Below are positions 18,745-54,269 of a stretch of DNA of 64,000 nucleotides, piece after piece (the stretch's first letter is position 1; each line of letters begins with the position of its first letter). Source of the DNA: an uncultured Chloroflexota bacterium (GTDB lineage: Bacteria; Chloroflexota; Limnocylindria; Limnocylindrales; CSP1-4); assembly GCA_903822495.1 (NCBI GenBank), contig CAIJPD010000018.1, positions 62,001 to 126,000 on the forward strand, written 5' to 3'. Position numbers and translations under genes: made by a program. Below the pieces are notes generated by a model. The model did not search any database and had not been told where the DNA came from. It saw only the letters and a program-made list of their open reading frames with translations.

Positions 18745-19265
18745 GACTCTCTCCTGGTGGTGGGCTGGCCCTCGATGGGGTCTGGGACGGCGTTGGCAAG
18801 GATCTGGATGGCGCGCTCGACCAGGTCGAGATCGGCCTCGGGGACGGCGGCCAGGAAGGCGCGCATCTGGCGCGCGCCCAGCTCATGGAACTGCTCGATG
18901 GTCTCGATGCCCAGCGGCGTGACCGCGACGGTCACCTGGCGCCGGTTGGTGGGGACGGCCTCGCGGCTCAGGAGTCCCAGCTCCACCAGGCGGTCCACCG
19001 CCCCGCTCGCGGTCGAGAGGCTGATCCCCAGCCGTCCCGCGATCTCGGTGAGGCTGAGCGAGCCGCTCGCCACGACGACGTACAGGAGCTTGGCCTGCGC
19101 CATGGTCAGCTCGACGGCGGCCAGCTCCACGGCGTGGACCGACATGAGCCGGTGCTGGAACCGCTCGAAGGCGAGAAGGACGCGTTCGATGTCCGGGCGG
19201 GCGTCCGGTTCCGATGTCGGCAGCCCGGCGGCCGAACTGTTTGGTCGGTCCGTAGTGTTTGGCAC
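18741..19265 (-). CDS. MarR-family transcriptional regulator
   Basis: LTEIAGRLGISLSTASGAVDRLVELGLLSREAVPTNRRQVTVAVTPLG wHTH; overlaps RND start; leaderless-type TAGCAT-N6-GTG. Confidence 0.9.
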   Translation of the reverse strand: MPNTTDRPNSSAAGLPTSEPDARPDIERVLLAFERFQHRLMSVHAVELAAVELTMAQAKLLYVVVASGSLSLTEIAGRLGISLSTASGAVDRLVELGLLSREAVPTNRRQVTVAVTPLGIETIEQFHELGARQMRAFLAAVPEADLDLVERAIQILANAVPDPIEGQPTTRRES

Positions 19266-19306
19266 GCGCGAATGCTACGGCGACTCCGGACTCCTCGCAG
19301 GCGCAG

Positions 19307-20638
19307 CTACATCCCGTGGCGGAGGAGGCGCCAGATCGTCCGGGCGCCGGGTCGCTGCCCGTACAAGAGGACCCCGACCGCGTACAGGCGGGCCGCCAGC
19401 CAGAGACACGCGACGAGGGTGACGGCCATCAGCACGATGGACAACGGCACCTCCCAGGGGGCCGCCTGCCCCGAGGTCACGCGGCTGAGCATCAGGAACG
19501 GGCTGAGGAAGGGCACCTGGCCCAGGAAGGTCAGCCAGCCGGCCCGGATGTCCAGGAGGCCGGTCGCGGAGTAGACGCCCACCATGTAGCCGGCCGTGGC
19601 GACCAGCGTCATGGGGGTGACGACCTGGTTCACGTCCTCCTGGCGGCTGACCAGCGAGCCGGCGCCCGCGAACAGCACCGCGTAGAGCAGGAAGCCCAGC
19701 ACGCCATACACCACCAGGAGCCCCAGGAGCCCCGGCGTGAGGCCCTGCGGCAGCGAGGATGCGGCCGTGCCCGCGCCCAGCAGGAGCCCGGCGACCGGTC
19801 CCTGGGCGGCCAACGCGACGAGCCCCGCCGCCAGGATCGCCAGGTACTGCGTCAGCGCCACCCCGCCGACGCCGGCGACCTTGCCGGTGAGCAGCTGGAA
19901 CGGCGTGGCGGCGTTGAGGATGACCTCCATGACGCGCGAGGACTTCTCCTCGACGACGCTTGCCGCGACCCACTGGCCATACAGGATGATCATCATGAAG
20001 ATCAGGATCGTCATGCCGAAGCCCAGGAAGTAACTGGCGCCCTGGTCCGCGCTCGACTGCGTCGCCTCCGTCCGGGCGGGATCCGCCCAGGCGACCGAGA
20101 AGTCTGCCGGGGCGAAGATCCGGGCCTGGTCGGCGGGCGCGACGTTCAGCCGGGCGAGACGGTCGGCGATCACCACGGCACTCACGGCCTGGCGGATGAG
20201 CTGGGCGACCCGTCCGGTCGAGCTCTCATTGGTGTACAGGGTGAACGCCAGGTCGCCCGACGGGCCACGCGCCAGGGCCAGCACCGCCGTGTCCTCGCCC
20301 TTGTCGACGGCACGACGCTCGGCGTCGAGGTCCGTCACGGCTCGGACACTGAAGTCTCCGGTCGTTGCCTGCCCGCCCGCGCTTGTCCCGCCCCCGGTCG
20401 GTGCGTTGAGCAGCGAGTCGAGGGTGGCCGCCGGGCTCCCTCCGATGTCGCCGGCGCCGTCCCAGACGGCCACCCGCTGGGCACCGGATCCGGAGATGGC
20501 CTGGACGATGATCGGCACCATGGCGATCGCCACCACGCTCAGGACCAGCAGGGCCGTCCCAACCAGGAAGCTCCGGGCCCGGACTCGTGACTGGTATTCG
20601 CGCCGCGCCACGGTCACGATGTTCGCCACGTTGCTCAT
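19307..20638 (-). CDS. ABC-2 type transporter permease (NatB-like)
   Basis: MSNVANIVTVARREYQSRVRARSFLVGTALLVLSVV ... VAASVVEEKSSRVMEVILNAATPFQLLTGKVAGVGGVALTQY. Confidence 0.92.
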   Translation of the reverse strand: MSNVANIVTVARREYQSRVRARSFLVGTALLVLSVVAIAMVPIIVQAISGSGAQRVAVWDGAGDIGGSPAATLDSLLNAPTGGGTSAGGQATTGDFSVRAVTDLDAERRAVDKGEDTAVLALARGPSGDLAFTLYTNESSTGRVAQLIRQAVSAVVIADRLARLNVAPADQARIFAPADFSVAWADPARTEATQSSADQGASYFLGFGMTILIFMMIILYGQWVAASVVEEKSSRVMEVILNAATPFQLLTGKVAGVGGVALTQYLAILAAGLVALAAQGPVAGLLLGAGTAASSLPQGLTPGLLGLLVVYGVLGFLLYAVLFAGAGSLVSRQEDVNQVVTPMTLVATAGYMVGVYSATGLLDIRAGWLTFLGQVPFLSPFLMLSRVTSGQAAPWEVPLSIVLMAVTLVACLWLAARLYAVGVLLYGQRPGARTIWRLLRHGM

Positions 20639-21606
20639 CGGGCGCCCACCGGGGCCGCCAGGGTGTGGTCCTCCGAGACGAGCGCACCCACCCGCTCCAC
20701 GAAGACCTCCTCGAGGGACGGGTCGGCCACCTCGAAGCGAAGCACGTCCCGGCCGCGCTCCACGGCCGCGCGCAGCACGGCCTGCGGGTTCCCGCCCGCT
20801 GCCACGCGCAGCTCCGTGTAGTCCGCGCCACGCCGGGTCACGGTGACCCCGGGCAGCGCCCCCAGCCATTCCGCGTCCGCCCCGCCATCCGTCGCGACCC
20901 GGACCACCTGGTTGCCGGTCGACCGCCGGACCTCGCGGGTGGACCCGGCGATCACGAGGCGGCCATGGTCGATGATGGCGACCGAATCGCAGAGCTCCTC
21001 GGCGGTCGAGAGCTGATGCGTGCTGAAGACGATGGTCCGCCCCTGGTCGCGCAGCTCCAGGAGCGCCTCGCGGAGCTGGGCGGCATTGACCGGGTCCAGG
21101 CCCGTGAACGGCTCGTCCATGATCAGGACCTGGGGGCCATGGAGGATCGTGGCGATGTACTGGACCTTCTGCTGGTTGCCCTTCGACAGCGTCTCCGCCT
21201 TCCGGTTCGCGTACTCGGCGATCCGGAAGCGGGCCAGCCACTCCAGGGCCTGGGCCCGGGCCTGGCGGCGCGGCACCCCGTACAGGGCCGCGAAGAAGAC
21301 GAGCTGCTCAAGGACCTCCATCCGCAGGTAGAGGCCCCGCTCCTCGGGCATGTAGCCCCAGGTCCGGCGCGGCCAGGCATGGGCCGGGCGGCCATCCCAC
21401 GTGATCGTCCCTCCGTCGGCCTGCAGGAAGCCGAGGACGATCCGCATGGTCGTGGTCTTGCCGGCGCCATTGGAGCCGAGGAAGCCGAAGATCTCTCCGG
21501 CCCGAACCTCGAACGAAACGCCGTCGAGGGCCTGGACGGCGCCGAAGCGCTTGCGCAGGCCCTCGATGACGAGTCGGCCGCCAGTGGCGGACGCAACGCT
21601 GCTCAT
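20635..21606 (-). CDS. ABC transporter ATP-binding protein
   Basis: GSNGAGKTTTMRIVLGF (Walker A), LSKGNQQKVQYIATILHGPQVLIMDEPFTGLDPVN; ATGA overlap with permease. Confidence 0.95.
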   Translation of the reverse strand: MSSVASATGGRLVIEGLRKRFGAVQALDGVSFEVRAGEIFGFLGSNGAGKTTTMRIVLGFLQADGGTITWDGRPAHAWPRRTWGYMPEERGLYLRMEVLEQLVFFAALYGVPRRQARAQALEWLARFRIAEYANRKAETLSKGNQQKVQYIATILHGPQVLIMDEPFTGLDPVNAAQLREALLELRDQGRTIVFSTHQLSTAEELCDSVAIIDHGRLVIAGSTREVRRSTGNQVVRVATDGGADAEWLGALPGVTVTRRGADYTELRVAAGGNPQAVLRAAVERGRDVLRFEVADPSLEEVFVERVGALVSEDHTLAAPVGAR

Positions 21607-21697
21607 GTGTCGATCATAGCCAAGTCTGGAGCGCGACCGCCGGCAGCCGATGGCGGATCGCCGGCAGCCGGCCGCCGCCCCGGGCCCGGGCCGGGGA

Positions 21698-23152
21698 TCA
21701 GGCGGCGACCGGCTCCCGCCCCATCAGCAGGGCGTACGCCACGGCCGTGCCCACACCCACCGGGAGCGAGACCGGGATCGTCTCGCGGATGTCCGGGAAG
21801 ACGTAGGCCAGGATCGCGTAGGCCGCGCCGCCACCGACGAGGCAGGCGATCGCCCGCCAGTTCCAGCCGTCGCCGTGCCAGTAGCGGCCACCCTCCTTGA
21901 GGAACAGGTCCGCGTCGTAGTGCTGCCGACGAACCCAGAAGTAGTCCACCAGGACGATGACCCAGAGGGGAACCACCACCGCGCCCAGCAGGTCGAGCCA
22001 CGCAATGTAGGTGGCCTCGAAGCCGCGCGCCACCAGCGGCAGCAGCGCCAGCGGGATCACCACCGCCGAGACGATCGCGATGATCGGCCGGACGCCGATG
22101 CGGAGGCTCGGCGCCAGGTTGGTGATCGCCAGCGCGGAGGCCGTCAGGTTGCCCGCGTTGGTCGCGACGGTGGCCAGCACGATGACCGTGGCCGCGATCC
22201 AGCCAAGGCCGATCTGGGTGGTCAACGTGGACGGGTTGGCAGCCTCCGGGTGGAACTCGCCGGTGGTCGTCGCGAGGTAGACCACGCCCAGGGCGCCGAT
22301 CAGGAACCACCACGTCTGGGCCAGGTTGGCCCCGATGAACGGCCCGCCCGCACCCGCCACGCCGTTGCGGGCGAAGCGCGAGAAGTCGCCGATGAACTCC
22401 CAGGTCCAGTTGTAGGCGATGAGCAGGTCGACGAGGATCGCGAAGGTGATCGTGTACGTGACCGGGCCGACCGACGTGGTCAGCCCTCCGACCGGCGGCC
22501 GCCAGCTCATGAGCGCGCCCGGATCCCAGTGGGTGGCGATCAGCCAGACCTGGATGACGCCCAGCGTGAACAGCGCGATCGTCGCGGCCCACTGGACAAT
22601 CCGGAGCACCTGGTGACCCGCCACCGCGGCGATGCCCTGGAGGATGGCGACCACCACGACCGCGCCGATCATCGGCCCCTCGTAGCCGGGGCTCAGGAAG
22701 GCAGGCGTGCCCAGCCAGCCGGCAAACACATATGACAGGCCGATCGCGCCCAGGAAGACGTTGACGGCCGCCCAGCCCAGGCCGAACACGAGATAGAGGA
22801 TCGAGGGGACGACCGAGCCACGCAGGCCGAACGCCGGGCGGACCATGGCGGTCGAGCAGGCGCCCGTCCGGGCGGCGATCAGCCCGAGGAGCGCCCACGG
22901 GAGGAGGCTCAGCGGGCTGACGACGGCGACCAGGAGGATGGCGCCGGGCATGCCCGTGGCGCCGGCCATCAGGGCGCCGTACAGCCACGCCGCCGGAATG
23001 TGAGTGGCCGCGAACCAGAAGGCGGTCTGGTCGGCGAGGCCGAAGGTCCTGGCGCGCTGGGGCACCTGGTCCAGGGCCGCGTACTCGTGGCCGATCAGGC
23101 CCAGCGAGTGCGGCGGCGCCTCGCCGCTGGGCATGGCCGTGCTGCTGGTCAT
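21698..23152 (-). CDS. NCS1-family (cytosine/purine/vitamin-type) permease
   Basis: ~484 aa, ~12 hydrophobic segments; WVIVLVDYFWVRRQHYDADLFLKEGGRYW, FARNGVAGAGG. Start 23152 preferred: AGGAGGGG SD 7 nt upstream. Confidence 0.85.
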   Translation of the reverse strand: MTSSTAMPSGEAPPHSLGLIGHEYAALDQVPQRARTFGLADQTAFWFAATHIPAAWLYGALMAGATGMPGAILLVAVVSPLSLLPWALLGLIAARTGACSTAMVRPAFGLRGSVVPSILYLVFGLGWAAVNVFLGAIGLSYVFAGWLGTPAFLSPGYEGPMIGAVVVVAILQGIAAVAGHQVLRIVQWAATIALFTLGVIQVWLIATHWDPGALMSWRPPVGGLTTSVGPVTYTITFAILVDLLIAYNWTWEFIGDFSRFARNGVAGAGGPFIGANLAQTWWFLIGALGVVYLATTTGEFHPEAANPSTLTTQIGLGWIAATVIVLATVATNAGNLTASALAITNLAPSLRIGVRPIIAIVSAVVIPLALLPLVARGFEATYIAWLDLLGAVVVPLWVIVLVDYFWVRRQHYDADLFLKEGGRYWHGDGWNWRAIACLVGGGAAYAILAYVFPDIRETIPVSLPVGVGTAVAYALLMGREPVAA

Positions 23153-23260
23153 CCGGGATCCCCTCCTGATCGTGGAACGTGGCATGGACGCGGCACCGCT
23201 GCGAGGCAGTCCCGGACGTGGCGGCAGTGCGGCATGGCCGCGGCTGCGTTCATGAGTGGC

Positions 23261-23824
23261 TCATGGGGCGGCATCCTCGCCTTCGAGGAGGTAGCCCAGG
23301 TCGGCGAGCGCCCGGCGGGCCGCCGCGAGGTCCGCCTCGGTCGCGGCCTCCAGCGTATGGAGATGGACCCCCCCGGTCAGCTCCGAGAGGAACTTGGCGC
23401 CCACCCGGCGCGTGGAGTCGGCCCACTGCCGGACGTCGGCCGGCGAGCCCAGCTCCAGCTCACCGCGGATCTCCCCGTAGACCGGATGCTGGACCACCAC
23501 GTCCCGCACGCGGACCCCAAGGTCGACCATGGCCATCAGCTCGTCGACCGTCTGGTTTGGCGTGTGGCGCACGGCGACCACGGCGCGGTACGGCAGACGA
23601 TCCGCCTCCCGGGCCAGCAGGTAGCCGCGCACCGTGGCCACGACGGGCGCTCCCTCGGCCCGGAGGACCGCGATGTCGTGGACGATCGCCTGGCGGCTGA
23701 TCCCGAAGTGCTCGGCCAGCACATCACCCGCCAGCGGGGCCGGGGCCGACCGCAGGAGCGCCACGAGCGCCGCACGGCGCGCACCGCCCACGGGGCGGGG
23801 GAGGGAGCTGTCGTTGCCGGGCAT
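23261..23824 (-). CDS. niaR: NiaR-like transcriptional regulator (HTH + 3H domain)
   Basis: HTH followed by 3H-domain text: ISRQAIVHDIAVLRAEGAPVVATVRGYLL ... VRHTPNQTVDELMAMVDLGVRVRDVVVQHPVYGEIRGELELGSPADVRQW ... LTGGVHLHTLEA. Start 23824 preferred to 23857 on promoter layout. Confidence 0.82.
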   Translation of the reverse strand: MPGNDSSLPRPVGGARRAALVALLRSAPAPLAGDVLAEHFGISRQAIVHDIAVLRAEGAPVVATVRGYLLAREADRLPYRAVVAVRHTPNQTVDELMAMVDLGVRVRDVVVQHPVYGEIRGELELGSPADVRQWADSTRRVGAKFLSELTGGVHLHTLEAATEADLAAARRALADLGYLLEGEDAAP

Positions 23825-23850
23825 CGCCGCGGAGCGTACCGGCGTGGCAT

Positions 23851-23874
23851 CTGTCATGTCAACTGACGTGACAG
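23851..23874. promoter_or_regulatory. 24-bp imperfect palindrome overlapping -35 of the niaR-like gene (candidate NiaR operator)
   Basis: ctgtcatgtcaactgacgtgacag; contains reverse-strand TTGACA (23862-23857), 18-nt spacer, TACGCT (23838-23833), 8 nt to ATG 23824. Confidence 0.6.
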
Positions 23875-23954
23875 CGAGCCCCGTGCCCGATCAGGCCGTC
23901 AGCGGTCTCCCGCGGGGCCGGGGGCGCGGCGATGGCCCCGCCCCATCCCGGCGA

Positions 23955-24632
23955 TCACTGCGCCTGCTCCACGCTCCCCACCACGACCCCGGCGAGACCG
24001 CTCAGCGTCCCCAGCGCCGCGTAGAGCTGCGGGGCGGCCGCGCGCCGGATGGTCACCTCGACGTCGTACTGCCCGGATCCCTGGCGCCGGCTGTGGATCC
24101 CGCCGACCTCCAGGCCGCCGGCCTCCAGCGCCTCGCGGACCCTGCCGATCGACGGCAGGTCGTTCACCACGACCCGGATGGTGGAGGTCGACGAGCGCCG
24201 GCCCTCCAGCCGATCGGCGATCGGGTGGAGCGGCCAGAGCGAGATCAGGACGATCGTCGTGCCGGCCAGCGCGAGCCAGATCGCGCCCACCGCCGCCGCC
24301 ATCCCCAGGGCCGCGACGCTCCACAGGCTGGCGGCGGTGGTGAGGCCGCGGATCGTGAAGCCGTCCTTGAGGATGGCTCCGGCGCCGAGGAAGCCGATCC
24401 CCGAGACCACCTGGGCCGCGATCCGCGTGGGGTCGACCGGGGCAGATCCCAGGCCCTCGAAGCCGCGGAACGAGAGGACCGTGAAGATGGCCGAGCCGAC
24501 CGAGACCAGCAGGTGGGTACGGAGGCCCGCCGGGTGGCCGTGGATCTCGCGCTCCAGGCCCACGCCCGCGCCGAGCAGCGCGGCCAGCACGAGGCGGAGG
24601 ATGAGCTCGATGTCGCCGGGAGGGTTGGTCAC
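23955..24632 (-). CDS. MgtC/SapB family protein
   Basis: LRLVLAALLGAGVGLEREIHGHPAGLRTHLLVSVGSAIFTVLS ... AAQVVSGIGFLGAGAILKDGFTIRGLTTAASLWSVAALGMA. Confidence 0.93.
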   Translation of the reverse strand: MTNPPGDIELILRLVLAALLGAGVGLEREIHGHPAGLRTHLLVSVGSAIFTVLSFRGFEGLGSAPVDPTRIAAQVVSGIGFLGAGAILKDGFTIRGLTTAASLWSVAALGMAAAVGAIWLALAGTTIVLISLWPLHPIADRLEGRRSSTSTIRVVVNDLPSIGRVREALEAGGLEVGGIHSRRQGSGQYDVEVTIRRAAAPQLYAALGTLSGLAGVVVGSVEQAQ

Positions 24633-24664
24633 GCGCCAATCATCGCACCCGATACCATCGCCCG

Positions 24665-25507
24665 ATGCAGGAGTTCCCCTTCCCCGGCGAGCCGGTCGTC
24701 AGGCTCACCCGGGTTTCCGTCCATCGCTCCGACCGGACCATCCTCGGCCCGCTCGACCTGGAGATCCACGCGGGCCAGCGATGGCTCGTCCTGGGTCCCA
24801 ACGGGTCCGGCAAGACCACGCTGATGCAGGTCATCAGCACGTACCTCTGGCCCACCGAGGGCGAGGTCGAGATCCTGGGCGGGCGGATCGGCGAGATCGA
24901 CGCGCGGGAGCTCCGCCGTCGCGTGGGGTATGCCGGTGGCGGGCTGGAGCCGGCCATCGACCCGGACCTCCCCGCGGTGGACGTGGTCATGACCGCCCGA
25001 AAAGCCGCGCTGGCGCCGTGGTGGCACACGTGGGAGGAGGCGGATCGCGAGCGAGCGCGCGAGCTCCTCGACCGGTTCGGCGTGGGCGGCCTGGGTCGCC
25101 AGGCGTTCGGCCTGCTCTCCAGCGGCGAGCGTCGCCGGGTGCAGTTGGCGCGGGCGATGATGCCCGACCCGGAGCTGCTGATCCTCGACGAGCCCACGGC
25201 CGGGCTTGATCTGGGCGCGCGCGAGGAGCTGTTGCGCGACCTGGCGCTCCTGGCCGCGGACCCCGCCCTCGCGGCGATCCTCCTTGTCCTGCACCACGTC
25301 GAGGAGATCCCCGCCGGGTTCGACCGCGCGCTCCTCCTCCGGGCGGGACGGGCCGTCGCGACGGGTCCCACGCCGGAGGTCGTCGCCTCGGGCCCGCTGT
25401 CGACGGCCTTCGGGTTGCCGATCCGGGTGGAGGGCGCGAACGGCCGCTACTGGGCCCGCCTCGACGACCGGCAGCCGGACGCTGGTGAGGCCGAGCGCCG
25501 CGGCTGA
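24665..25507 (+). CDS. ABC transporter ATP-binding protein
   Basis: LGPNGSGKTTLMQVI, LLSSGERRRVQLARAMMPDPELLILDEPTAGLDLGARE. Confidence 0.92.
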   Translation: MQEFPFPGEPVVRLTRVSVHRSDRTILGPLDLEIHAGQRWLVLGPNGSGKTTLMQVISTYLWPTEGEVEILGGRIGEIDARELRRRVGYAGGGLEPAIDPDLPAVDVVMTARKAALAPWWHTWEEADRERARELLDRFGVGGLGRQAFGLLSSGERRRVQLARAMMPDPELLILDEPTAGLDLGAREELLRDLALLAADPALAAILLVLHHVEEIPAGFDRALLLRAGRAVATGPTPEVVASGPLSTAFGLPIRVEGANGRYWARLDDRQPDAGEAERRG

Positions 25508-25570
25508 TCCGCGGCTGATCGTCGGGCGCGACGGGGTGCCCCGCAGCGCCACATCTGGCACGATGGCGCC

Positions 25571-28393: not shown

Positions 28394-28497
28394 TCCGGGT
28401 CGGGCGCGAGGGTCCCCACCGACCGGCCCTGCCTCGCCCTCGGTTCATCCTTCGCTCCCGACCCCCGCGAGGATGACCGCGTCGTATGATGCTGGGC

Positions 28498-29790: not shown

Positions 29791-29902
29791 CCCTCCCCTG
29801 ACCCAGCACGCGGTCCACCGCGCCGACTGACGCACCCCGAGTGGCCCGGCGCTGGCAATTCATCCCGTAGCCTCCAACGCGAAGATCCGCGATGATGGCG
29901 TC

Positions 29903-31450: not shown

Positions 31451-31529
31451 CGGCCCTCCGGCCGCGCTCGTCGGCGGCCCTCCGGTGACCTCGAGGGGTG
31501 GCTCGCCGGGAATCCGCTAGAGTCGGCCC

Positions 31530-32111
31530 ATGACACGTCGGCGCTTCCTCTTCGATCCTCCCGACCGCTTCGTGGCGGGCACCGTCGGCATGCCCGGCCA
31601 GCGCACGTTCCTGCTCCAGGCCAGGGAGGGCCGGCGCATCGTCTCGGTCGTACTGGAGAAGGCCCAGGTCGCCATCCTGGCCGACCGGCTGGAGCGACTG
31701 CTCGACGAGCTGTGGGAGGGCGGCCTGGCGGTCGCCGATCCAGCGGTGCTGCACGCGGATGATGGAGAGGATGCGTCGGGCGGCCCAGACCACCTCGACG
31801 AGCCGCTCAACGAGGCCTTTCGCGCGGCGGCGCTGACCCTGGGCTGGGATGCCGGAGCGCAGCGCGTGCTGATCGAGGCACGCTCCGAGGGCGCGACCAC
31901 GGACGAGGAGCTGGCCGAGCTGCTCGACGACGAGGACGAAGACGGCCCGGACCTGCTCCGCGTCAGGATGACGGCCGCGGACGCGCGCGGGTTCGTCCGG
32001 GGCGCCATGGCCCTGGTCAACGCGGGCCGACCGCCGTGCCCGCTGTGCGGAAGGCCGCTGGATCCGCAGGGCCACATCTGCCCGCGCAAGAACGGCCACT
32101 ACGTCAATTAG
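31530..32111 (+). CDS. DUF3090 family protein
   Basis: RFLFDPPDRFVAGTVGMPGQRTFLLQAREGRRIVSVVLEKAQVAILADRL ... CPLCGRPLDPQGHICPRKNG. Confidence 0.9.
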   Translation: MTRRRFLFDPPDRFVAGTVGMPGQRTFLLQAREGRRIVSVVLEKAQVAILADRLERLLDELWEGGLAVADPAVLHADDGEDASGGPDHLDEPLNEAFRAAALTLGWDAGAQRVLIEARSEGATTDEELAELLDDEDEDGPDLLRVRMTAADARGFVRGAMALVNAGRPPCPLCGRPLDPQGHICPRKNGHYVN

Positions 32112-32120
32112 GGTCGGCCC

Positions 32121-32909: not shown

Positions 32910-32919
32910 CCGGGAATCA

Positions 32920-32948
32920 AACCGCCGCGCCCGGAGGGCGCGGCGGTT
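32920..32948. terminator. bidirectional hairpin between convergent genes
   Basis: aaccgccgcgcc-cggag-ggcgcggcggtt, 12-13 bp perfect stem; no T-tract. Confidence 0.7.
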
Positions 32949-32996
32949 CAGATGGGTCGAGGTGCAAGGCCGGCGGCGCCGGTCCCGGATCCCGCG

Positions 32997-38352: not shown

Positions 38353-38406
38353 GGCGACCGTCGTGGGTCGTTCTCCCGTCAACGACCGGTCCCGTATCAT
38401 CTGCCG

Positions 38407-38991: not shown

Positions 38992-39043
38992 CAGGGGCCG
39001 CCATGCCCAGTCCCGGCGGCCGGATCACCGGTCGCCCCGCGGG

Positions 39044-41163: not shown

Positions 41164-41195
41164 CGGGCGGGCGGCCTCGCCGCTAGATTCCGGTC

Positions 41196-41879: not shown

Positions 41880-41960
41880 GGGCCGCGGACCCAGCGGGGC
41901 GAGCGGACCCCGCGGCCCCGGCGGGACGACCGGGACCGCGGGTCGCTGGCCGGACATGAT

Positions 41961-42818: not shown

Positions 42819-42864
42819 GACCTGCTCCTCGTTCCCGGCGATGGTCGTCGCCGCAGTGATGCAG

Positions 42865-42895
42865 ATCGTAGTTGCCCTTGGCCTTGTTGGTCAAG
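42865..42895 (-). promoter_or_regulatory. promoter of the FTR1 gene with inverted repeat over the -35
   Basis: Reverse strand TTGACC-N18-TACGAT; CTTGGCC-TTGTT-GGTCAAG inverted repeat (42877-42895) overlaps the -35. Confidence 0.55.
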
Positions 42896-43048
42896 CGTCC
42901 CTGAGTCCAGTACGCATGGCGCCCTTCCATCGAGCGGCAGGTGCATCGGGCGGCACGAGGCAGATGGGTCTCCGGGCCCGTGCGGCGATGTCGTTGGCCA
43001 GGCGTGCCGGACGCCGTGCGCCGGCTAAGGCGCCGGCGGGGGCGCGGG

Positions 43049-45730: not shown

Positions 45731-45971
45731 CGGCACGGGATCTGCTCCACTGGCCGTCGGGACGCGGCGCGCTTGACGGTGGCTCATCGCCAATGGCGGC
45801 GGGCCGACCGTGGCCCCCGATGGGACGCGGCTGTGACGCTGGGCGGACGGCCCTGTTGCTCCCCATCTGGGCGACGGGTCAGGTTGCTGGGAGGAAGCGT
45901 AGCCCATCACGCCAACCGTCGCCGATGCGGGACCGGTTGGGATGACGGGCCCAATGCGCTAGAGTCGGCGC

Positions 45972-46571
45972 ATGCAGCGGTACGACCCCCAGACGGCCCT
46001 GATCGTCGTCGACATGCAGAACGACTTCGCGGACCCGGCCGGCGGCCTCCCCGTGACGGGCGGCGACGAGATCGTGGACCTGATCAACCGCAAGGCGTGG
46101 CGTGCGATCCGGGCCGGGTCGTTCGTCGTCTACACGCAGGACTGGCATCCCGAGACCACGGCCCACTTCGCGAAGGATGGCGGCCTCTGGCCGGTCCACT
46201 GCGTGGCGGGGACCTGGGGCGCCGCCTTCCACCCTGGCCTCGAGGTCCTGGGCCCCTCGGTGAAGAAGGGCGTCAACGGCGAGGACGGCTACTCAGGCTT
46301 CACCATGCGCGACCCGGTCACCGGGGAGACCATCCCGACGGAGCTGGAGGCGCTCCTGCGCGTCCGCGGGATCGAGCGCGTGAGGATCTGCGGCCTGGCC
46401 ACGGACTACTGCGTCAAGGCCACGGCGCTCGACGCGGCCCGGCTGGGCTTCGCCACCACCGTCCTGGCGGACGCCATCGCGGCGGTTGACCTGCAGCCGC
46501 GCGACGGCGAGGCCGCGATCGATGAGATGCGGGCCGCTGACATCGTCGTCCAGCGCACGAAGCCCGACTGA
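45972..46571 (+). CDS. pncA: nicotinamidase / isochorismatase-family hydrolase
   Basis: TALIVVDMQNDFADPAGGLPVTGGDEIVDLIN ... DWHPETTAHF ... WPVHCVAGTWGA ... RICGLATDYCVKATALDAARLG. Confidence 0.92.
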   Translation: MQRYDPQTALIVVDMQNDFADPAGGLPVTGGDEIVDLINRKAWRAIRAGSFVVYTQDWHPETTAHFAKDGGLWPVHCVAGTWGAAFHPGLEVLGPSVKKGVNGEDGYSGFTMRDPVTGETIPTELEALLRVRGIERVRICGLATDYCVKATALDAARLGFATTVLADAIAAVDLQPRDGEAAIDEMRAADIVVQRTKPD

Positions 46572-46654
46572 GCCTCTCGGCCGGCGGCCCTGCACGACCT
46601 GGGCCGGTCCCGGCCACACCCGTCCAGCCCCGGTCCCCGGCAGCGAGGCAAGCG

Positions 46655-47554
46655 ATGGACCTCCACCTGGTCGATGCCACCTATGAGCTCTTCCGGGCGC
46701 ACTTCTCGCCGCGCCCCCCGGTCTACGGGCGAGACCGCGTGCTGCTGTCCGGCGTCTCGGGCCTGGTCGAGCAACTCCTGGTCCTCCTGCGCGACGAGGG
46801 CGCGACCCACGTCGGGTGCGCCACCGACCAGGTGATCCGGTCGTTCCGGAACGACCTGTACCCGGGCTACAAGACCGATGCGGGGGTGCCCCCCGAGCTC
46901 CTGGCGCAGTTCCCCGTCGCCGAGGAGGCGATCGAGGCCCTTGGGCTCGTGCTGTGGGCCATGGTCGAGTTCGAGGCCGACGACGCGATCGCCGCGGCGG
47001 CCGTCCGCTTCGCCGACCAGCCAGGGGTGGACCGGGTCGTGGTCTGCACGCCGGACAAGGACATGGCGCAGCTGGTTCGGGGCGGCAAGGTGGTCCTCTG
47101 GGATCGGCGGCGGCAGGTCGTCTACGACGACGAAGGCGTCCGGGCCAAGTGGGGCGTGCCCCCGGCCTCCATCCCCGACTGGCTCGCGCTGGTCGGCGAC
47201 GCCGCCGATGGCTTTCCCGGCCTCCCCGGCTGGGGCGCCAAGTCGGCGGCCGCCGTGCTGGCGATGTACGGCTCGCTGGAGGGGATCCCGGAGCGCCCCA
47301 CCGCGTGGGAGGTGCCCGGCCTGCGCGGCGCGGTCACCCTCTCGGCCACGCTGCGTCAACAGTGGGGCGACGCGCTGCTCTACCGCGACCTGGCGCGCCT
47401 CCGCACGGCGGCGGACGGCGTGCCCATCCCGCAGCCGACACCCGACGACCTGCGCTGGCGGGGGGCGCCGCGCGACCGTTGGGTGGCGTTCTGCGACCGC
47501 TGGGGGCTGGGTCGGCTCCGGGACCGGCCGCACCGCTGGCAGGACGAGGGCTAG
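46655..47554 (+). CDS. 5'-3' exonuclease (FEN/PolA N-terminal-like)
   Basis: MDLHLVDATYELFRAHF ... FRNDLYPGYKTD ... EFEADDAIAAAA ... VVCTPDKDMAQLV ... VGDAADGFPGLPGWGAKSAAAVLAMYGSLEGI. Confidence 0.9.
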   Translation: MDLHLVDATYELFRAHFSPRPPVYGRDRVLLSGVSGLVEQLLVLLRDEGATHVGCATDQVIRSFRNDLYPGYKTDAGVPPELLAQFPVAEEAIEALGLVLWAMVEFEADDAIAAAAVRFADQPGVDRVVVCTPDKDMAQLVRGGKVVLWDRRRQVVYDDEGVRAKWGVPPASIPDWLALVGDAADGFPGLPGWGAKSAAAVLAMYGSLEGIPERPTAWEVPGLRGAVTLSATLRQQWGDALLYRDLARLRTAADGVPIPQPTPDDLRWRGAPRDRWVAFCDRWGLGRLRDRPHRWQDEG

Positions 47555-48408
47555 CCGCGGTCTCCGCGGACCAGCGCCAGGAACTGCCCGTGGCCCGTGG
47601 GCGGCGCGGCGAGCACGCTGATGCTCCGGGTCGGGTGGCCAAGGTTGAACCACGGCCCGCCGGCCAGGTCCGTCACCGTGGCGCCGCCGGCCTCGGCGAT
47701 CAGCCCGGCCGCGGCGATGTCCCAGAGCGAGAGGCCGCCCTCCTGGACGAAGCCATCGAACCGGCCGTGGGCCACGTACGCGAGCGCCAGCGCCGCCGAG
47801 CCCATGTTCCGGACGGCGCGCACGGCCTTCATGACCGAGGCGCTCCTCCGGCCGGACGCCCGGCCGTTGAGCCAGAGAGACACCACGAAGTCATTCAGCG
47901 CGGGCTTGGCGGGCGTCCGGATCTCGCGGCCATTCAGGTGGGCAGGCCCGCCGGCGACCGCGGCGAACGTCTCTGCCCGGATTGGGTCATGGACCACGCC
48001 CAGGCTGGGGACGCCGTCGAGCACCATGGCGATGGACACGCAGAAGTACGGCACGCCGTTGGCGTAGTTGATGGTGCCGTCCAGGGGGTCGACGATCCAG
48101 AGACGGCCAACGCCCGAGGTGGCCTGGCCGCCGTGCCCGTCGTGCCCGCCGGTCTCCTCGGCCAGGATGGCGTCGCCCGGCCCGTGGGCGCGGATGGCGT
48201 CCAGGATCAGCGCTTCCGAGAGGTGGTCCACCTCCGTGACGACGTCCTTGGTGCCCTTGTAGTCCACGCGCTCCACGCGCTCGTAGCGCTCCGCAAGGAT
48301 GCGGCCCGCGCGCTCGGCCAGGTCGCTGGCGAAGGCGAGGTCGGCGGACAGGGTCGGCGAGGGACCGGCGTGGCTGGCTTGTTCGCTCTCGCTCACGGGG
48401 CCGAGCAT
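47551..48408 (-). CDS. inositol monophosphatase-family protein
   Basis: DVVTEVDHLSEALI ... ILAEETGG ... LWIVDPLDGTINYANGVPYFCVSIAM ... LSLWDIAAAGLIAEAGGATVTDLAG. Confidence 0.93.
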   Translation of the reverse strand: MLGPVSESEQASHAGPSPTLSADLAFASDLAERAGRILAERYERVERVDYKGTKDVVTEVDHLSEALILDAIRAHGPGDAILAEETGGHDGHGGQATSGVGRLWIVDPLDGTINYANGVPYFCVSIAMVLDGVPSLGVVHDPIRAETFAAVAGGPAHLNGREIRTPAKPALNDFVVSLWLNGRASGRRSASVMKAVRAVRNMGSAALALAYVAHGRFDGFVQEGGLSLWDIAAAGLIAEAGGATVTDLAGGPWFNLGHPTRSISVLAAPPTGHGQFLALVRGDRG

Positions 48409-48917
48409 TGGACGACGAGGAGCCGGGGCGTGCCGCCGAGCTGGGTGATCTGGCTGGTGAACGTCACGGTCTGGCCGGCGTCGATCCGGGGGGTCTCGGC
48501 ATAGCCGTTGGCGCCGCCGTAGCGCGCCACCGGATCGTTGAGCACGCATGTGGTCGCGCCCGCGCTGGTGCCCTGGTTGGTGACCATGAGGGTCACGGCC
48601 AGGCCGTCACCGGAGGCGGCGACCGTCACGAGATCACCCTTGAACGGCCCGACGCCGGCGAAGGCCATCCGGGCCACCACGGCCATGATCACAACGGCGA
48701 TCACGATCCCCAGGAGCGCGGTGCCGTGCACCTGCGACGACGCGGGATCGGCGAGGCCCAGGGGGTTGCACTCGTCGCACAGCCCGACGTCGATGGCGAC
48801 GGGGGCGCCGCACCGGACACAGCCGTGGAGCACGGGCGCGTCCTGGGCGTCAGGCGGGAGGGCGGCCTGGGCCGGGTCACCGGCGGGACTTGTCAGGGGC
48901 GCGGGGCTGCTTGTCAT
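48393..48917 (-). CDS. zinc-ribbon membrane protein of unknown function
   Basis: LHGCVRCGAPVAIDVGLCDECNP, one TM helix, beta-rich C-terminal domain. Start uncertain (48917 or 48995); 3' end overlaps the IMPase start. Confidence 0.65.
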   Translation of the reverse strand: MTSSPAPLTSPAGDPAQAALPPDAQDAPVLHGCVRCGAPVAIDVGLCDECNPLGLADPASSQVHGTALLGIVIAVVIMAVVARMAFAGVGPFKGDLVTVAASGDGLAVTLMVTNQGTSAGATTCVLNDPVARYGGANGYAETPRIDAGQTVTFTSQITQLGGTPRLLVVQCSAP

Positions 48918-49220
48918 CGGATCTCCAATGGTCGCACGAACGGCCGGAGGTGGTCCGGCGTTGCGTCCGTCTCCGACCGACGCCATTCTTGCCATACGAC
49001 CACCCGGCGAGCATTAGGTGAACCTCGGACCGGATCCGGCCCCTCCCGAGTGATCCGGGGGATCGAATTCATCCCGGGCCACGCTCACGCCGGCATGATT
49101 CCTCTCCCGTCCCGTCGTCCAGCGGTCGAGCATGTCGCCTTACGACCGTGGGGCGGTCATTTGGGAGAAACGGATCCCTGGGGCGCTCAGGCCGTGAACG
49201 CCACTCGACGACGACTCTGA

Positions 49221-50453
49221 TCAGCTCGGCCCGTAGGTCCCCGCCTTCGCCGTCTCGAACGCATCGGCCAGGAGTCGAAGGCCCACTTCGAAGGACGTCT
49301 GGCCGTCGATTCTCAGGCCAATGCCGTAGATCGAGTCGCGGCCGAAGCCCGAGCCATACGCCCAATGGTCGTGCGGAAGCCGGTACTCGACCCGGACCTC
49401 GCCGGGCCGAGGGCGGACATAGGCCAGGGTCTGCCCACCCAAGGTGATCCGGAAGTAGGTCGGCGTTGCACCTGCGTGCGGTACGAGCTCGACTGGCAGT
49501 CGTGTCGCCTGTTCCGCCAGGGCGCGCGCGATCGACTCGACCAGGGCTGTGCCGCTCCGTGATCGAATGACGTCAAGCACCGGGGCGGGCACGGGCCTCG
49601 GATCCCCCAGGGCGACACCCCGGCGGAGATCAACGAGCGCGTCCACGTCGGCAGCGGTGCGGGGCATCAGGATCACGCCATCGGCGCCGGCGACCAGCCA
49701 GCGGGCCAGCTCCTGCGTGGGATTGGCCGCCCAGGGCGTGCCGACGACGTTGTCGCGGCCGGCGCGGCCTTCGGGCATGCCGACGAGGACCTCCTGCGTG
49801 GCGCGGTCGCGGCCGGCGGCGGCCAGGGCGTCCAGGTAGGCCGGGAGCAGGCGTTCGAAGGAGGTCGAAGCCGCCGCCCAGCCATCGGCCGCGCGGGCGG
49901 CGAGTCGGACGCCGGCGGGTGACTGCGCGCCGACGAGGATGGGCGGCACTGGGCGGGGCGCGGGCAGCTGCCGCGCGTCGCGGAGCGAGGCGACCGCCCC
50001 GGCCTCGCCGGTCACCACCTCCCCGGACCACAGGGCGCGGATCGCGGCGATGGACTCCTCGAGCAGGACGGCGCGCTCCCCCGCCGGCGGGAACGGAATC
50101 CCCAGCGCCGCGTGTTCGCCCGGAAACCCGCCGATCCCCATCCCCAGCACCAGCCGCCCGCCGGCGATCCCCTGGACCGTGGCCGCCGCCTTGGCGACGA
50201 GCGCCGGGTGGCGCTTGGTGACGTCGAGGACCAGGCTGCCCACCCGGACTCGCGACGTGCGCGCCGCGACCGCCGCGAGCATGGTCCAGGCCTCCAGCAC
50301 CGGGAGCGTTCCGTCGCCGCGCGGCATCAGGTGGTCCCAGCACCAGATCCCGTCGTAGCCGGCCGCCTCCAGGCGGACCGCTGCGTCCAGGAACCAGCCC
50401 GCGTCGGCGCCGATCGTGGGCAGGCAGACGCCGATCGGCAGCCGGCCGGCCAT
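49221..50453 (-). CDS. LLM-class flavin-dependent oxidoreductase with ~100-aa C-terminal extension
   Basis: GYDGIWCWDHLMPRGDGTLPVLEAWTMLAAVAARTSRVRVGSLVLDVTKRHPALVAKAAATVQGIAGGRLVLGMGIG; extra C-terminal segment after VLDVIRSR. Confidence 0.85.
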   Translation of the reverse strand: MAGRLPIGVCLPTIGADAGWFLDAAVRLEAAGYDGIWCWDHLMPRGDGTLPVLEAWTMLAAVAARTSRVRVGSLVLDVTKRHPALVAKAAATVQGIAGGRLVLGMGIGGFPGEHAALGIPFPPAGERAVLLEESIAAIRALWSGEVVTGEAGAVASLRDARQLPAPRPVPPILVGAQSPAGVRLAARAADGWAAASTSFERLLPAYLDALAAAGRDRATQEVLVGMPEGRAGRDNVVGTPWAANPTQELARWLVAGADGVILMPRTAADVDALVDLRRGVALGDPRPVPAPVLDVIRSRSGTALVESIARALAEQATRLPVELVPHAGATPTYFRITLGGQTLAYVRPRPGEVRVEYRLPHDHWAYGSGFGRDSIYGIGLRIDGQTSFEVGLRLLADAFETAKAGTYGPS

Positions 50454-50462
50454 GGGCGGCCC

Positions 50463-51317
50463 CTAGAGCCCCGTCTCGAAGATGCGGATGTCCTCCGGCG
50501 TGGCCGTCCCGCCGTCGCCCCGGGTGAAGGCCAGGGCGTCCCGGGTCCCCAGCGCGTCCAGGTCCGCCGGGAAGCGGGCGATCATCCCCAGGACCACCGT
50601 CCGGATCCGCGCCGAGTTCTTCTCGAAGACCTCGATGACGCTGTGGGCGTTGACCGCCTCGGTCCCCTCGATGACCCCGGCGTCGTAGTCCGTGATCAGC
50701 GAGATGTTGACCACCGCCATGCCCAGCTCCCGGCACAGGTAGGCCTCGGGGTACTGGGTCATGTTGATGACCTCCCAGCCCGCCGACGAGAACCAGCGCG
50801 ATTCCGCCTTGGTGGAGAAGCGCGGGCCCTGGATGACCACCACGGTCCCAGCCCGGTGAAGGGTGATCCCCTGCTCCTCGATCACCTGGGCGGCGATCTC
50901 GCGGAGCGTGGGGTCGTAGATCTCCGCCGAGGAGACGTGCGAGACGATCGGCCCGTCGAAGAAGGTGTCCGCCCGGCCGTTGGTGCGATCCACGAACTGG
51001 TCGCAGGTGACGAAGTCGCCGGGCTTGACGTGGGCCTGGAGGGAGCCAGCGGCGCACGGCGAGATGATCGCCTTGACGCCCAGGGCCTTCATGCCCCACA
51101 CGTTGGCGCGGTAGTTGACCTTGTGGGGCGGCAGCGTGTGGCGGCGCCCGTGGCGGGGCAGGAAGGCAACGCGCCGGCCCGCGACCGTGGCCAGGAAGTA
51201 GCTGTCCGAGGGCGCCCCGTATGGGGTGTCCACCTTGACTTCACGCACCTCGTCGAGGAGGGAATAGAAGCCCGACCCCCCGAACACCCCAATCTCCGCG
51301 TGATCCGCCACCGACAT
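50463..51317 (-). CDS. mtnP: S-methyl-5'-thioadenosine phosphorylase
   Basis: IGVFGGSGFYSLL ... FLPRHGRRHTLPPHKVNYRANVWGMKALGVKAIISPCAAGSL ... VINMTQYPEAYLCRELGMAVVNISLITDYDAG. Confidence 0.95.
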   Translation of the reverse strand: MSVADHAEIGVFGGSGFYSLLDEVREVKVDTPYGAPSDSYFLATVAGRRVAFLPRHGRRHTLPPHKVNYRANVWGMKALGVKAIISPCAAGSLQAHVKPGDFVTCDQFVDRTNGRADTFFDGPIVSHVSSAEIYDPTLREIAAQVIEEQGITLHRAGTVVVIQGPRFSTKAESRWFSSAGWEVINMTQYPEAYLCRELGMAVVNISLITDYDAGVIEGTEAVNAHSVIEVFEKNSARIRTVVLGMIARFPADLDALGTRDALAFTRGDGGTATPEDIRIFETGL

Positions 51318-51395
51318 CTCCCCTGTGCTTCCGAGCGCGGTCGTCGCGGCGCTCGGCCCGATTCTAGCCCGCGCGCCGGGGCGTACCATCCGGAC

Positions 51396-51851
51396 ATGAG
51401 CGACACCACCCGGGAGGCCGCCGCGCCGGCCGTCCTGTCCGAGCCGGTCCGCCGATTCCTGGCGGCCCCGCACACCGCCGCCGTCGCCACCATCGGTGCC
51501 GACGGCGCCCCGCACCAGACCTTTGTCTGGTACGCGCTGGAGCCCGACGGCGCCATCCTGCTCAACTCCCTGGTGGGCCGCCGCTGGCCCGCGGAGCTCC
51601 AGCGGGACGGCCGCGCCGCCCTGGCCATCGCCAACGTGGCCAACCAGCTCAGCTGGGTCGGCATCAGCGCCGAGGTCGTCTCGGTGGACCATGACCGGGA
51701 GCGGGCCCTGGCGGACATCCTCGCGCTCGCCCACCGCTACCAGGAGCATCCGACGGAGGAGTACCTCGACGGCTTCCGGAGCCAGCTCCGGATCACGTTT
51801 CGCCTCCGGATCACCCGCCTCCACGATCACCTGCGGGCGCCCGACCTGTGA
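51396..51851 (+). CDS. PPOX-class (likely F420-dependent) flavin/deazaflavin oxidoreductase
   Basis: 151 aa; RRFLAAPHTAAVATIGADGAPHQTFVWYALEPDGAILLNSLVGRRWPAELQRDGRAALAI; next to cofD. Confidence 0.87.
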   Translation: MSDTTREAAAPAVLSEPVRRFLAAPHTAAVATIGADGAPHQTFVWYALEPDGAILLNSLVGRRWPAELQRDGRAALAIANVANQLSWVGISAEVVSVDHDRERALADILALAHRYQEHPTEEYLDGFRSQLRITFRLRITRLHDHLRAPDL

Positions 51852-52792
51852 CCGCCGCGGGGCGCGTCGTCGCCCTGGCCGGCGGAGTCGGCGGCTCGAA
51901 GCTCGCAGACGGCCTGCAGGTGCTCCTTGGGGACCGGCTGACCGTCATCGTCAACACCGCGGACGACACGGAGCGCCACGGCCTCCTGGTCTCGCCCGAC
52001 CACGACACGGTCATGTACACCCTGGCAGGGCTCGCCAACGAGGAGCAGGGCTGGGGCCTGCGTGGCGAGACGTGGGCCACGTCCGCCATGCTCGAGCGGC
52101 TGGGCGAGGAGACGTGGTTCCGCCTGGGGGACCAGGACCTTGGGGTCCATATCGCCCGCACGCGCCTGCTGCGCGCCGGCGGGCGACCCACGACGGTCGC
52201 GCTCCATCTCCAGCGCTCGCTGGGCGTGACGGCCACCATCCTGCCCATGACCGATGCGTCGGTGCGGACCAGGGTGCGCACCGACCACGGCTGGCTGGAC
52301 TTCCAGGAGTACTTCGTCCATCGCCACCAGGAGCCAGTCGTCCTCGAGCTGGAGCTGGCAGGCATTGGGACGGCCCACGCGACGCCGGAGGTGCTCGCCG
52401 CGCTGGACGGGGCGGACCTGATCGTCATCGGGCCATCCAACCCGCTCGTCTCGATCGGGCCGATCCTGGCCGTCGGCGGGATGCGTGAGGCCATCGCCCG
52501 GGCCCGGGCACGCGGCGTCACGGTGGTGGCCGTCTCCGGGATCATCGGCGGCAAGGCGGTCCGCGGACCGGCGGACCGGATGCTCACCTCGCTGGGGCAC
52601 GACCCGTCGGCGCTGGGCGTCGCGCGCCTGTACGGCGACGTCGCCTCGGTGTTCGTGCTCGATCGCGTCGACGAGGCGCTGGCGAGCGCCGTCGCGTCGC
52701 TCGGCCTCCGGCCCGTGATCCTCGACACGCTGATGGCCGATCGAGCGGGTCGCTCCCGGTTGGCCGGCGAAGTCCTGGCCGCGGTCGGCTAG
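51848..52792 (+). CDS. cofD: 2-phospho-L-lactate transferase
   Basis: VVALAGGVGGSKLADGLQVLLGDRLTVIVNTADDTERHGLLVSPDHDTVMYTLAGLAN. Confidence 0.95.
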   Translation: MTAAGRVVALAGGVGGSKLADGLQVLLGDRLTVIVNTADDTERHGLLVSPDHDTVMYTLAGLANEEQGWGLRGETWATSAMLERLGEETWFRLGDQDLGVHIARTRLLRAGGRPTTVALHLQRSLGVTATILPMTDASVRTRVRTDHGWLDFQEYFVHRHQEPVVLELELAGIGTAHATPEVLAALDGADLIVIGPSNPLVSIGPILAVGGMREAIARARARGVTVVAVSGIIGGKAVRGPADRMLTSLGHDPSALGVARLYGDVASVFVLDRVDEALASAVASLGLRPVILDTLMADRAGRSRLAGEVLAAVG

Positions 52793-52802
52793 GATCCCAC
52801 CC

Positions 52803-54269
52803 ATGGCAGAGCACGCAGCCGGCAGCAGGGGCCGGGCAGACACGTGGGTGGTCGTGCCCCTGCGCGGCCTGGAGGCCGCCAAGTCACGGCTGGGCGGTCA
52901 GCTCGATGCGGAGGAACGGCTCGACCTGGTCACGGGGCTGCTGGAACGCACCCTGGCTGCGGCGACCGGCTGCGGCGGGGTGGACCGCGTGCTCCTGGTC
53001 AGCCCGGATCTGGCCGCGCTGGAGCTGGGTGCCAGCATCGGCGTCGAGACGCTCCGGGAGCCCGGCCGCGGCCTCAATGCGGCCCTGCGCGCCGCCCGTG
53101 ATCATGCCGTCGCGCATGGCGCGACCACCCTCCTGGTGCTCCCTGCCGACCTGCCGCGCGTCAGCCCGGAGGCCATCGGCCACGTCATCGCCGCAGCAGA
53201 CACGCTCCGCGACGGAACCCGTCACGTGGTGGCGATGGTCCCGGACCGCCACGGCGGCGGCACCAACGCCCTGCTGCTGAGCCCGCCGGACACCATCCCG
53301 TTCACCTTCGGGCCCGGCAGCTCCATCGCCCATCGCGCGGCGGCGATCGCGGCGGGCGCCGCGCTCGTGGAGCTCGACGGGGAGCTCACCCTGGATGTGG
53401 ACACTCCGGATGACCTGCTCCTCGCCGAGGTCGCGCTCTCGCCGGCGGAGCACGTGGACTCCCGGCACCACGGGACGGTCATCCCCCTGGCCCGGTCGCC
53501 CTCGCCGTCCCGCGTGGAGATCGTGGCGCTCGACGGCATCCCGGAGATCCGGCCGGGCGACGACCTCGCCGCGCTGATCATCGCGGCGTTGCAGGGCACC
53601 CCGGGGCTCCTCCCGCTGCGCGACGACGACGTCCTGGTGGTGACCCAGAAGGTGGTCTCCAAGGCCGAGGGCGCGATGGTGGACCTGACCATGGTGCAGC
53701 CCCGTGCGGAGGCCACCGAGTACGCGGCCCGCTGGGACCGCGACGCCCGGCAGGTCGAGGTCGTGCTGCGCGAGGCGGTTCGCGTCGTCCGCATGGCCAA
53801 CGGCGTGATCATCACCGAGACGCCCCACGGCTTCGTGTGCGCCAACGGCGGCATCGACGCGTCGAACCTGGGCCCCGGCTCGGGCAGCGTCGTCACGCTG
53901 CTCCCCGTGGACGCGGATGCATCCGCGCGCGGGATCCGGACCGCCGTCCGCGAGCGCCTGGGCCGGGACGTGCCGGTGATCGTGTCCGACTCGTTCGGCC
54001 GACCCTGGCGGTGGGGCATCGTGGACGTGGCCATCGGCGTCTCCGGCCTGGAGCCGCTGGAGGACCTGCGCGGGTTCCCGGACCACGACGGCCGCGTCAT
54101 GCGCTCCACGGTCCGCGCCGTCGCCGACGAGCTGGCCTCCGCGGCGGAGCTGGCGCTGGGCAAGTCGGCCGGCCGCCCGGTCGCGGTCATCCGGGGGGCG
54201 ACGTTCGCCCGCGGCGAGACCGCCATCCGGGACGCGCTGATCCCGGGGGAGATGGACCTCTTCCGCTGA
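52803..54269 (+). CDS. fusion: CofC/FbiD-type guanylyltransferase + CofE-type F420-0:gamma-glutamyl ligase
   Basis: N-half WVVVPLRGLEAAKSRLGGQLDAEERLDLVTGLLERTL ... LVLPADLPRVSPEAI ... ELDGELTLDVDTPDDLLLAE; C-half EIRPGDDLAALII ... DDDVLVVTQKVVSKAEGAMVDL ... IITETPHGFVCANGGIDASNLGPGSGSVVTLLP ... IVSDSFGRPWRWGIVDVAIGVSGLEPLEDLRG; one ORF. Confidence 0.95.
   Translation: MAEHAAGSRGRADTWVVVPLRGLEAAKSRLGGQLDAEERLDLVTGLLERTLAAATGCGGVDRVLLVSPDLAALELGASIGVETLREPGRGLNAALRAARDHAVAHGATTLLVLPADLPRVSPEAIGHVIAAADTLRDGTRHVVAMVPDRHGGGTNALLLSPPDTIPFTFGPGSSIAHRAAAIAAGAALVELDGELTLDVDTPDDLLLAEVALSPAEHVDSRHHGTVIPLARSPSPSRVEIVALDGIPEIRPGDDLAALIIAALQGTPGLLPLRDDDVLVVTQKVVSKAEGAMVDLTMVQPRAEATEYAARWDRDARQVEVVLREAVRVVRMANGVIITETPHGFVCANGGIDASNLGPGSGSVVTLLPVDADASARGIRTAVRERLGRDVPVIVSDSFGRPWRWGIVDVAIGVSGLEPLEDLRGFPDHDGRVMRSTVRAVADELASAAELALGKSAGRPVAVIRGATFARGETAIRDALIPGEMDLFR

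Follow-up and report, generated by a model that had tools for sequence, protein, structure and literature searches.

Genes preceded by a TA-containing box (TA-led genes) were surveyed by Zheng et al. in 2011, who reported proportions of 19.2% in Actinobacteria and 39.4% in Deinococcus-Thermus; in Chloroflexi, 4 of the 12 genomes had such genes, with a mean of 4.7% and a box of the form TAtaaT (PMC3160421). In Mycobacterium tuberculosis, leaderless promoters have been located by mapping transcription start sites (TSSs) and account for 26% of the genes with a primary TSS (PMC3898074), and in Deinococcus radiodurans about one third of the genes have a -10 motif next to the open reading frame, as shown with reporters (PMC12340547). 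Here, we analyzed 64,000 nucleotides of contig CAIJPD010000018.1 from an uncultured bacterium of the Chloroflexota class Limnocylindria. In this stretch, referred to as the window, the hexamer TANNNT recurs 6 to 7 nt upstream of ATG or GTG start codons. The first-pass annotation of the window had read this hexamer as a -10 box that causes widespread leaderless transcription, an interpretation that, judged from the DNA, is almost certainly right. We assign a probability of about 0.92 to the reading that SigA-type -10 boxes without a -35 element give leaderless mRNAs in ~13 to 20% of the genes of this genome.

The boxes described below share with the surveyed TA-led genes the position of the first T at ~12 bp before the start codon, a high GC content, a majority of genes led by a Shine-Dalgarno (SD) sequence, and depletion at operon-distal positions; they differ from those of the surveyed Chloroflexi in their proportion (13 to 20% versus 4.7%), in the form TAnnnT instead of TAtaaT, and in belonging to a class of uncultivated bacteria (PMC3160421). 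Similarities to M. tuberculosis comprise the TANNNT -10, the lack of a conserved -35, a minority TGn, and a C before a purine start base, whereas the TSSs sequenced there are here inferred from sequence only (PMC3898074). As in Deinococcus-Thermus, TANNNT is located near the start codon, usually without a -35, and a GGAG-led class exists alongside, but the fraction is smaller than in D. radiodurans and is known from the sequence alone (PMC12340547). The same signature was found to be leaderless by TSS mapping in M. tuberculosis and by reporters in Deinococcus.

Enrichment of TANNNT upstream of start codons

The source genome is a metagenome-assembled genome (MAG) of 3.61 Mb in 68 contigs. The sample studied consisted of the window and 40 additional stretches (767 kb, ~21% of the genome), and the remainder was covered by whole-genome pattern counts. 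To avoid a dependence on gene calls, we counted TANNNT followed by (A/G)TG on both strands for all gaps from 0 to 30 nt. In the window, there were 10 matches at a gap of 6 nt and 2 at 7 nt, as compared to a mean of ~1.2 at other gaps, and the 10 matches at 6 nt correspond precisely to the ten genes that the first-pass annotation had listed at this spacing. By our own calculation, the Poisson probability of at least 10 such matches is ~1e-6. This enrichment is not restricted to the window, which is somewhat richer in TA-led genes than the genome overall. TANNNT-N6-ATG occurs 167 times in the whole genome versus 24 times for TANNNT-N14-ATG, and the gap histogram of the 767-kb sample peaks at 6 to 7 nt for ATG (37 and 35 matches) and at 6 nt for GTG (27 matches), whereas no such peak at 6 to 7 nt is present in this sample for TTG, CTG, ACG, or CAC, taken as non-start triplets. 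Likewise, TANNNT was found 6 or 7 nt upstream of 71 (39 + 32) of the 1,321 in-frame ATG/GTG candidates of the sample, but of only 7 (6 + 1) of the 859 out-of-frame ones. The positional enrichment that the annotation had proposed as a check is thus present genome-wide and is strong. With respect to composition, TANNNT occurs at 0.00024 per position in coding and 0.0020 in non-coding DNA, being ~8 times rarer in the former, and the TA dinucleotide itself is rare in this genome (window and stretches L080-L119).

Gene starts were then classified. A purpose-written codon-usage caller identified 677 genes in the sample, and an expectation-maximization mixture, in which motifs, spacings, and start choice were all free, arrived at the motifs TAnnnT and GGAGG. 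The spacing of TAnnnT was 6 nt in 46%, 7 nt in 34%, and 8 to 10 nt in ~18%, corresponding to a mode of 6/7 nt with a tail out to 8 to 10 nt. The class weights were 20% TA, 65% SD, and 15% neither. A TA posterior above 0.9 was obtained for 87 of 653 genes (13%), as compared to 6 to 8 for upstream sequences shuffled with preservation of dinucleotides, and a refit on such shuffled sequences recovered no TANNNT motif. Pooled actinobacterial loci, which are orthologous to one another, were left out of the genome-fraction figures. The word "widespread" is a fair description in that ~13% of the genes are assigned with confidence and the model weight amounts to 20%, but the class is not dominant, since ~65% of the genes are SD-led. 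A search of the MAG yielded no 16S gene from which the anti-SD sequence could have been read.

Promoter anatomy and operon position

The alignment of 87 promoters on the box revealed strong information at T1, A2, and T6 only, a weak TGn at -3/-2 in 18 of the 87, and no -35 signal upstream. Boxes spaced by 6 nt tend to have a C at -1, followed by a start codon whose first base is a purine; this C was counted at 32 of 46 such boxes, as compared to 135 of 264 SD genes. The genome encodes a SigA-like protein, the orthologues of which in relatives align through the C-terminal end. In families f2 and f4, the primary sigma factor had seemed truncated, which was traced to an artefact of match cutting, given that the tblastn alignment reaches the C-terminal end.

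Divergent SD-led genes carry the same TANNNT box, mostly 30 to 70 nt upstream, with counts of 0, 3, 9, 15, 6, 10, and 7 in successive 10-nt bins from 10 to 79 nt. The distance between box and start codon is bimodal, namely, 6 to 10 nt or more than 20 nt, and the zone between is empty, although the model pulls near-box genes into the TA class, so that classification could account for part of the gap immediately beyond 10 nt. Boxes at 13 to 19 nt, which is beyond the range of the model, are likewise absent before divergent SD genes. This empty zone is that of leaders too short for an SD site. No other argument speaks as strongly as this bimodality for the box as a general promoter element and for the lack of a leader in the near class.

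The annotation had further contrasted the TANNNT genes with operon-internal genes, described as SD-led, and this contrast is upheld statistically. Of the genes whose upstream neighbour is co-directional, 4 of 56 TA-led and 125 of 256 SD-led ones are less than 25 nt away from it (p 1e-9), and divergent orientation was observed for 45 of 101 TA-led versus 75 of 331 SD-led genes (p 4e-5).

With a TANNNT box 6 to 7 nt before a start codon, transcription initiated at the distance usual in bacteria would begin at the first base of this codon or adjacent to it. From the above properties, we infer that the boxes would be the -10 elements of housekeeping-sigma (SigA-type) promoters that function without a recognizable -35, that RNA polymerase would start on the first base of the ATG or GTG codon or ~1 base from it, and that the resulting mRNA, devoid of a 5' leader, would be bound by the ribosome directly at its 5'-terminal start codon. 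One promoter box would serve two leader classes, with the start site either at the start codon or beyond an SD leader. The leaderless kind would mostly comprise single genes or the first genes of operons, and downstream operon genes, together with most others, would use GGAGG leaders. About every fifth to eighth gene has its -10 box 6 to 7 nt before the start and, very probably, a leaderless mRNA.

Alternative explanations

Several points weigh against this reading. The start-site positions are predicted from box spacing, the cases spaced by 8 to 10 nt may have leaders of 1 to 4 nt, the gene starts of our own caller make the genome fraction uncertain (12% strict boxes at 6 to 8 nt, 20% model weight), the sample covers 21% of the genome, the same-genus conservation test described below is based on only 18 genes, and the individual case 32109/32121 is weak.

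The alternative that survives best, although we consider it unlikely, is that transcription starts 1 to 5 nt before the start codon, so that many mRNAs have a very short leader and are near-leaderless. Bacterial start sites can shift by a base or two, and the modelled spacing is 7 nt in 34% and 8 to 10 nt in ~18% of the cases; however, 6 nt is the commonest spacing, and the boxes at 6 nt show the C(-1) and purine first base preferred by mapped start sites (PMC3898074). Far less probable is a translational role in longer, leadered mRNAs, with the box as an AT-rich patch against folding of the start region or for the binding of ribosomal protein S1. An AT-rich bias upstream of starts has been interpreted as translational (PMC5397173), and four S1 domains are present in the S1 protein that the genome encodes. 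Such an unfolding patch would, however, be expected to be AT-rich throughout and loosely positioned, whereas the signal consists of T, A, and, four bases on, T, with a nearly free middle and a fixed spacing of 6 to 7 nt. In addition, the same box is located mostly 30 to 70 nt upstream of divergent SD-led genes, and it is rare at operon-internal starts, which have an equal need for translation signals. Finally, chance or composition, in the sense of TA-containing hexamers in short intergenic gaps picked by eye, is a negligible explanation, since, even if the ~8-fold greater frequency of TANNNT in non-coding DNA makes some near-start boxes expected and the 32109 box re-uses a stop codon, the peak at 6 to 7 nt is sharp, neighbouring gaps and non-start triplets are flat, out-of-frame starts are devoid of the box, and shuffles gave 6 to 8 against 87 observed. 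Chance is hence refuted genome-wide, but individual boxes can still be due to it.

Boxes in the window

All twelve TANNNT boxes of the first-pass annotation were found by direct reading with the sequence, coordinate, and spacing given there. The weaker variants were also present, CACGAT at start 25571 and GATGAT at starts 29903 and 24632, each at 6 nt, as were the SD genes at 23152, 36369, 42818, and 4154, all on the - strand. In the listed genes, only 6 to 7 nt separate box and start codon, and the sequences read contain no SD sequence in between. The putative -10 boxes and related elements are as follows; one of them (23833..23838) was absent from the earlier list.

24653..24658, + strand: -10 box TACCAT, 6 nt to ATG 24665, ABC transporter ATPase gene; TA posterior 1.0; identical in G044
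24639..24644, - strand: -10-like box GATGAT, 6 nt to GTG 24632, MgtC family gene; identical in G044
31518..31523, + strand: -10 box TAGAGT, 6 nt to ATG 31530, DUF3090 / TIGR03847 gene; TANNNT at 6 to 8 nt in 18/18 Chloroflexota loci
32109..32114, + strand: TAGGGT, doubtful instance, 6 nt to GTG 32121, SCO1664 family gene; TAG is the DUF3090 stop codon
37105..37110, + strand: -10 box TATGAT, 6 nt to GTG 37117, MFS transporter gene; identical in G044
38395..38400, + strand: -10 box TATCAT, 6 nt to ATG 38407, MarR regulator gene; TATGAT in relative, NNN change only
41184..41189, + strand: -10 box TAGATT, 6 nt to ATG 41196, thymidine kinase gene; kept in G044
45960..45965, + strand: -10 box TAGAGT, 6 nt to ATG 45972, isochorismatase / nicotinamidase-like gene
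51384..51389, + strand: -10 box TACCAT, 6 nt to ATG 51396, PNPOx-fold gene upstream of cofD
28485..28490, + strand: -10 box TATGAT, 7 nt to GTG 28498, TPR/HTH regulator gene; in relative TATACT, 7 nt, ATG
52790..52795, + strand: -10 box TAGGAT, 7 nt to ATG 52803, fused CofC-CofE gene
21613..21618, - strand: -10 box TATGAT, 6 nt to ATG 21606, ABC transporter ATPase gene; CATCAT in G044
19272..19277, - strand: -10 box TAGCAT, 6 nt to GTG 19265, MarR regulator gene; TAGTAT in G044, NNN change only
25559..25564, + strand: variant -10 box CACGAT, 6 nt to ATG 25571, penicillin-binding protein gene; TA posterior 0.95; identical in relative
29891..29896, + strand: variant -10 box GATGAT, 6 nt to ATG 29903, molybdopterin oxidoreductase gene; TA posterior 0.76
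23833..23838, - strand: box TACGCT, 8 nt to ATG 23824; TA posterior 0.94; identical in G044

The gene at 51396 was skipped by our gene caller, yet it is real, as its PNPOx domain is present. As to F420 biosynthesis, the CofC and CofE domains are fused in one protein (52803-54269), encoded directly after cofD (51848) and the PNPOx-fold gene (51396).

Conservation of the box

We compared 18 genes with those of G044, a genome of the same genus. The T, A, and T of the box were kept at 53 of 54 positions and the NNN at 50 of 54, as compared to 102 of 117 in the spacer and ~87 to 90% in the upstream flank. Changes are illustrated by the boxes before 38407 (TATCAT to TATGAT in the relative) and 19265 (TAGCAT to TAGTAT in G044), and by 28498, where TATGAT/GTG corresponds to TATACT/ATG in the relative with an unchanged 7-nt spacing. 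Among orthologues from different families of the class and from further Chloroflexi loci, 23 were TA-led versus 32 that were not for the TA-led genes, and 6 versus 86 for the other genes (p 5e-7); DUF3090 loci supply many of these, and without them the numbers are 5 versus 6 against 6 versus 57.

The protein encoded by the DUF3090 gene (31530) shares 94% identity with its counterpart in the Chloroflexi MAG RH-23may17-645, followed by proteins of other Chloroflexi MAGs, one of which is labelled Candidatus Limnocylindrales. On the basis of these relatives, we place the genome in Candidatus Limnocylindria (Chloroflexota). Among the DUF3090 loci (L001-L079), TANNNT is located 6 to 8 nt before the conserved start in all 18 Chloroflexota loci and 6 to 10 nt before the start in 47 of the 60 remaining loci, which are almost exclusively actinobacterial; Streptomyces loci have a GGAG-type leader before GTG in place of the box. 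Upstream conservation is limited to the box and, within Limnocylindria, to a partial GAATCCG shortly before it. For the following gene, the TA of the 32109 box is part of the DUF3090 TAG stop, and conservation of this box does not extend beyond the genus pair. A common dual role of the DUF3090 stop, serving also as the -10 box of the gene that follows, was considered and rejected, as relatives mostly end in TGA or have no box.

A different pattern was observed for thymidine kinase (41196). In the orthologues of G050, G047, and G020 (L122, L123, and L125), TANNNT is located 18 nt before the start, and a 12-nt segment with GGAGG adjoins the start, so that the box is 12 nt farther out than in the window. 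These sequences point to an apparent gain or loss of a short SD leader, namely, a switch between leaderless and minimal SD-led expression.

Occurrence in other Chloroflexota and outgroups

Strict boxes at 6 to 8 nt were found, with the same caller, in 11 to 19% of the genes in all sampled Limnocylindria families (f1, f3, and f4), the reduced-genome family f2 being represented by a few short loci only. The excess over background was 8- to 11-fold in these families, except for f3, where it was 5-fold. Outside this class, in samples of only 80 to 150 kb each, the Chloroflexota form a mosaic: TANNNT is clearly enriched in G072 (L267-L270) and G063 (L239-L242), and enrichment near starts is absent in the samples of G077, G061, G065, and G086. 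The same caller revealed no excess in the Thermomicrobium megaplasmid and little in Escherichia coli or the Cupriavidus megaplasmid.

We tentatively suggest, in a proposal that may well turn out to be wrong, that leaderless expression is an inherited trait of the entire class Limnocylindria and that for some genes, above all DUF3090, it is itself selected and kept across Chloroflexota and Actinomycetota, Streptomyces having swapped to an SD leader.

Divergent TA-led genes

The MgtC-family (24632) and ABC-ATPase (24665) genes of the window diverge from each other, their start codons being separated by 32 bp, and both are TA-led. Both boxes are identical in G044 and are separate from each other, 8 nt apart, instead of forming an overlapping symmetrical -10. 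Two polymerases could hardly be bound together within these 32 bp. Outside the window, at L105 18577-18606 (G000 C18:208577-208606), two divergent -10 boxes have a common TA, with 24 bp between the start codons of two long genes of the VIT and ornithine cyclodeaminase families. This sequence is a candidate bidirectional leaderless promoter. In bacterial bidirectional promoters, a pseudo-symmetrical sequence serves two divergent genes; the L105 site is similar in symmetry and differs in that both sides would be leaderless, with 24 bp between the starts (PMC12825309, PMC10268837). Box pairs less than 60 nt apart numbered nine with leaderless spacing versus one with control spacing, several of them with a non-coding side. 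Another possible shared -10, at G000 C31:59778-59805, was dropped, since its + side encodes 9 codons only.

Significance

The mechanism is known from other high-GC bacteria; what is new is its occurrence across Limnocylindria, in a lineage for which it had been considered rare, and the gene-level conservation of the leaderless box of DUF3090. We found nothing on leaderless genes in Limnocylindria in the open-licence papers searched, and the text of a 2026 study on the genome evolution of this class does not mention promoters or SD sequences (PMC13212565). With the present data, a class of uncultivated Chloroflexota, a phylum for which the published figure is 4.7%, joins the bacteria in which reliance on leaderless mRNAs is substantial. 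A class with TANNNT at 6/7 nt should be added when gene starts are predicted and expression is modelled for these MAGs. Conservation at the level of individual genes, along with switches between leaderless and SD-led expression, as in DUF3090 and thymidine kinase, provides material for asking why a gene is leaderless. If the selection proposed for genes such as DUF3090 is true, leaderlessness would be a property of the gene and not only of the genome.

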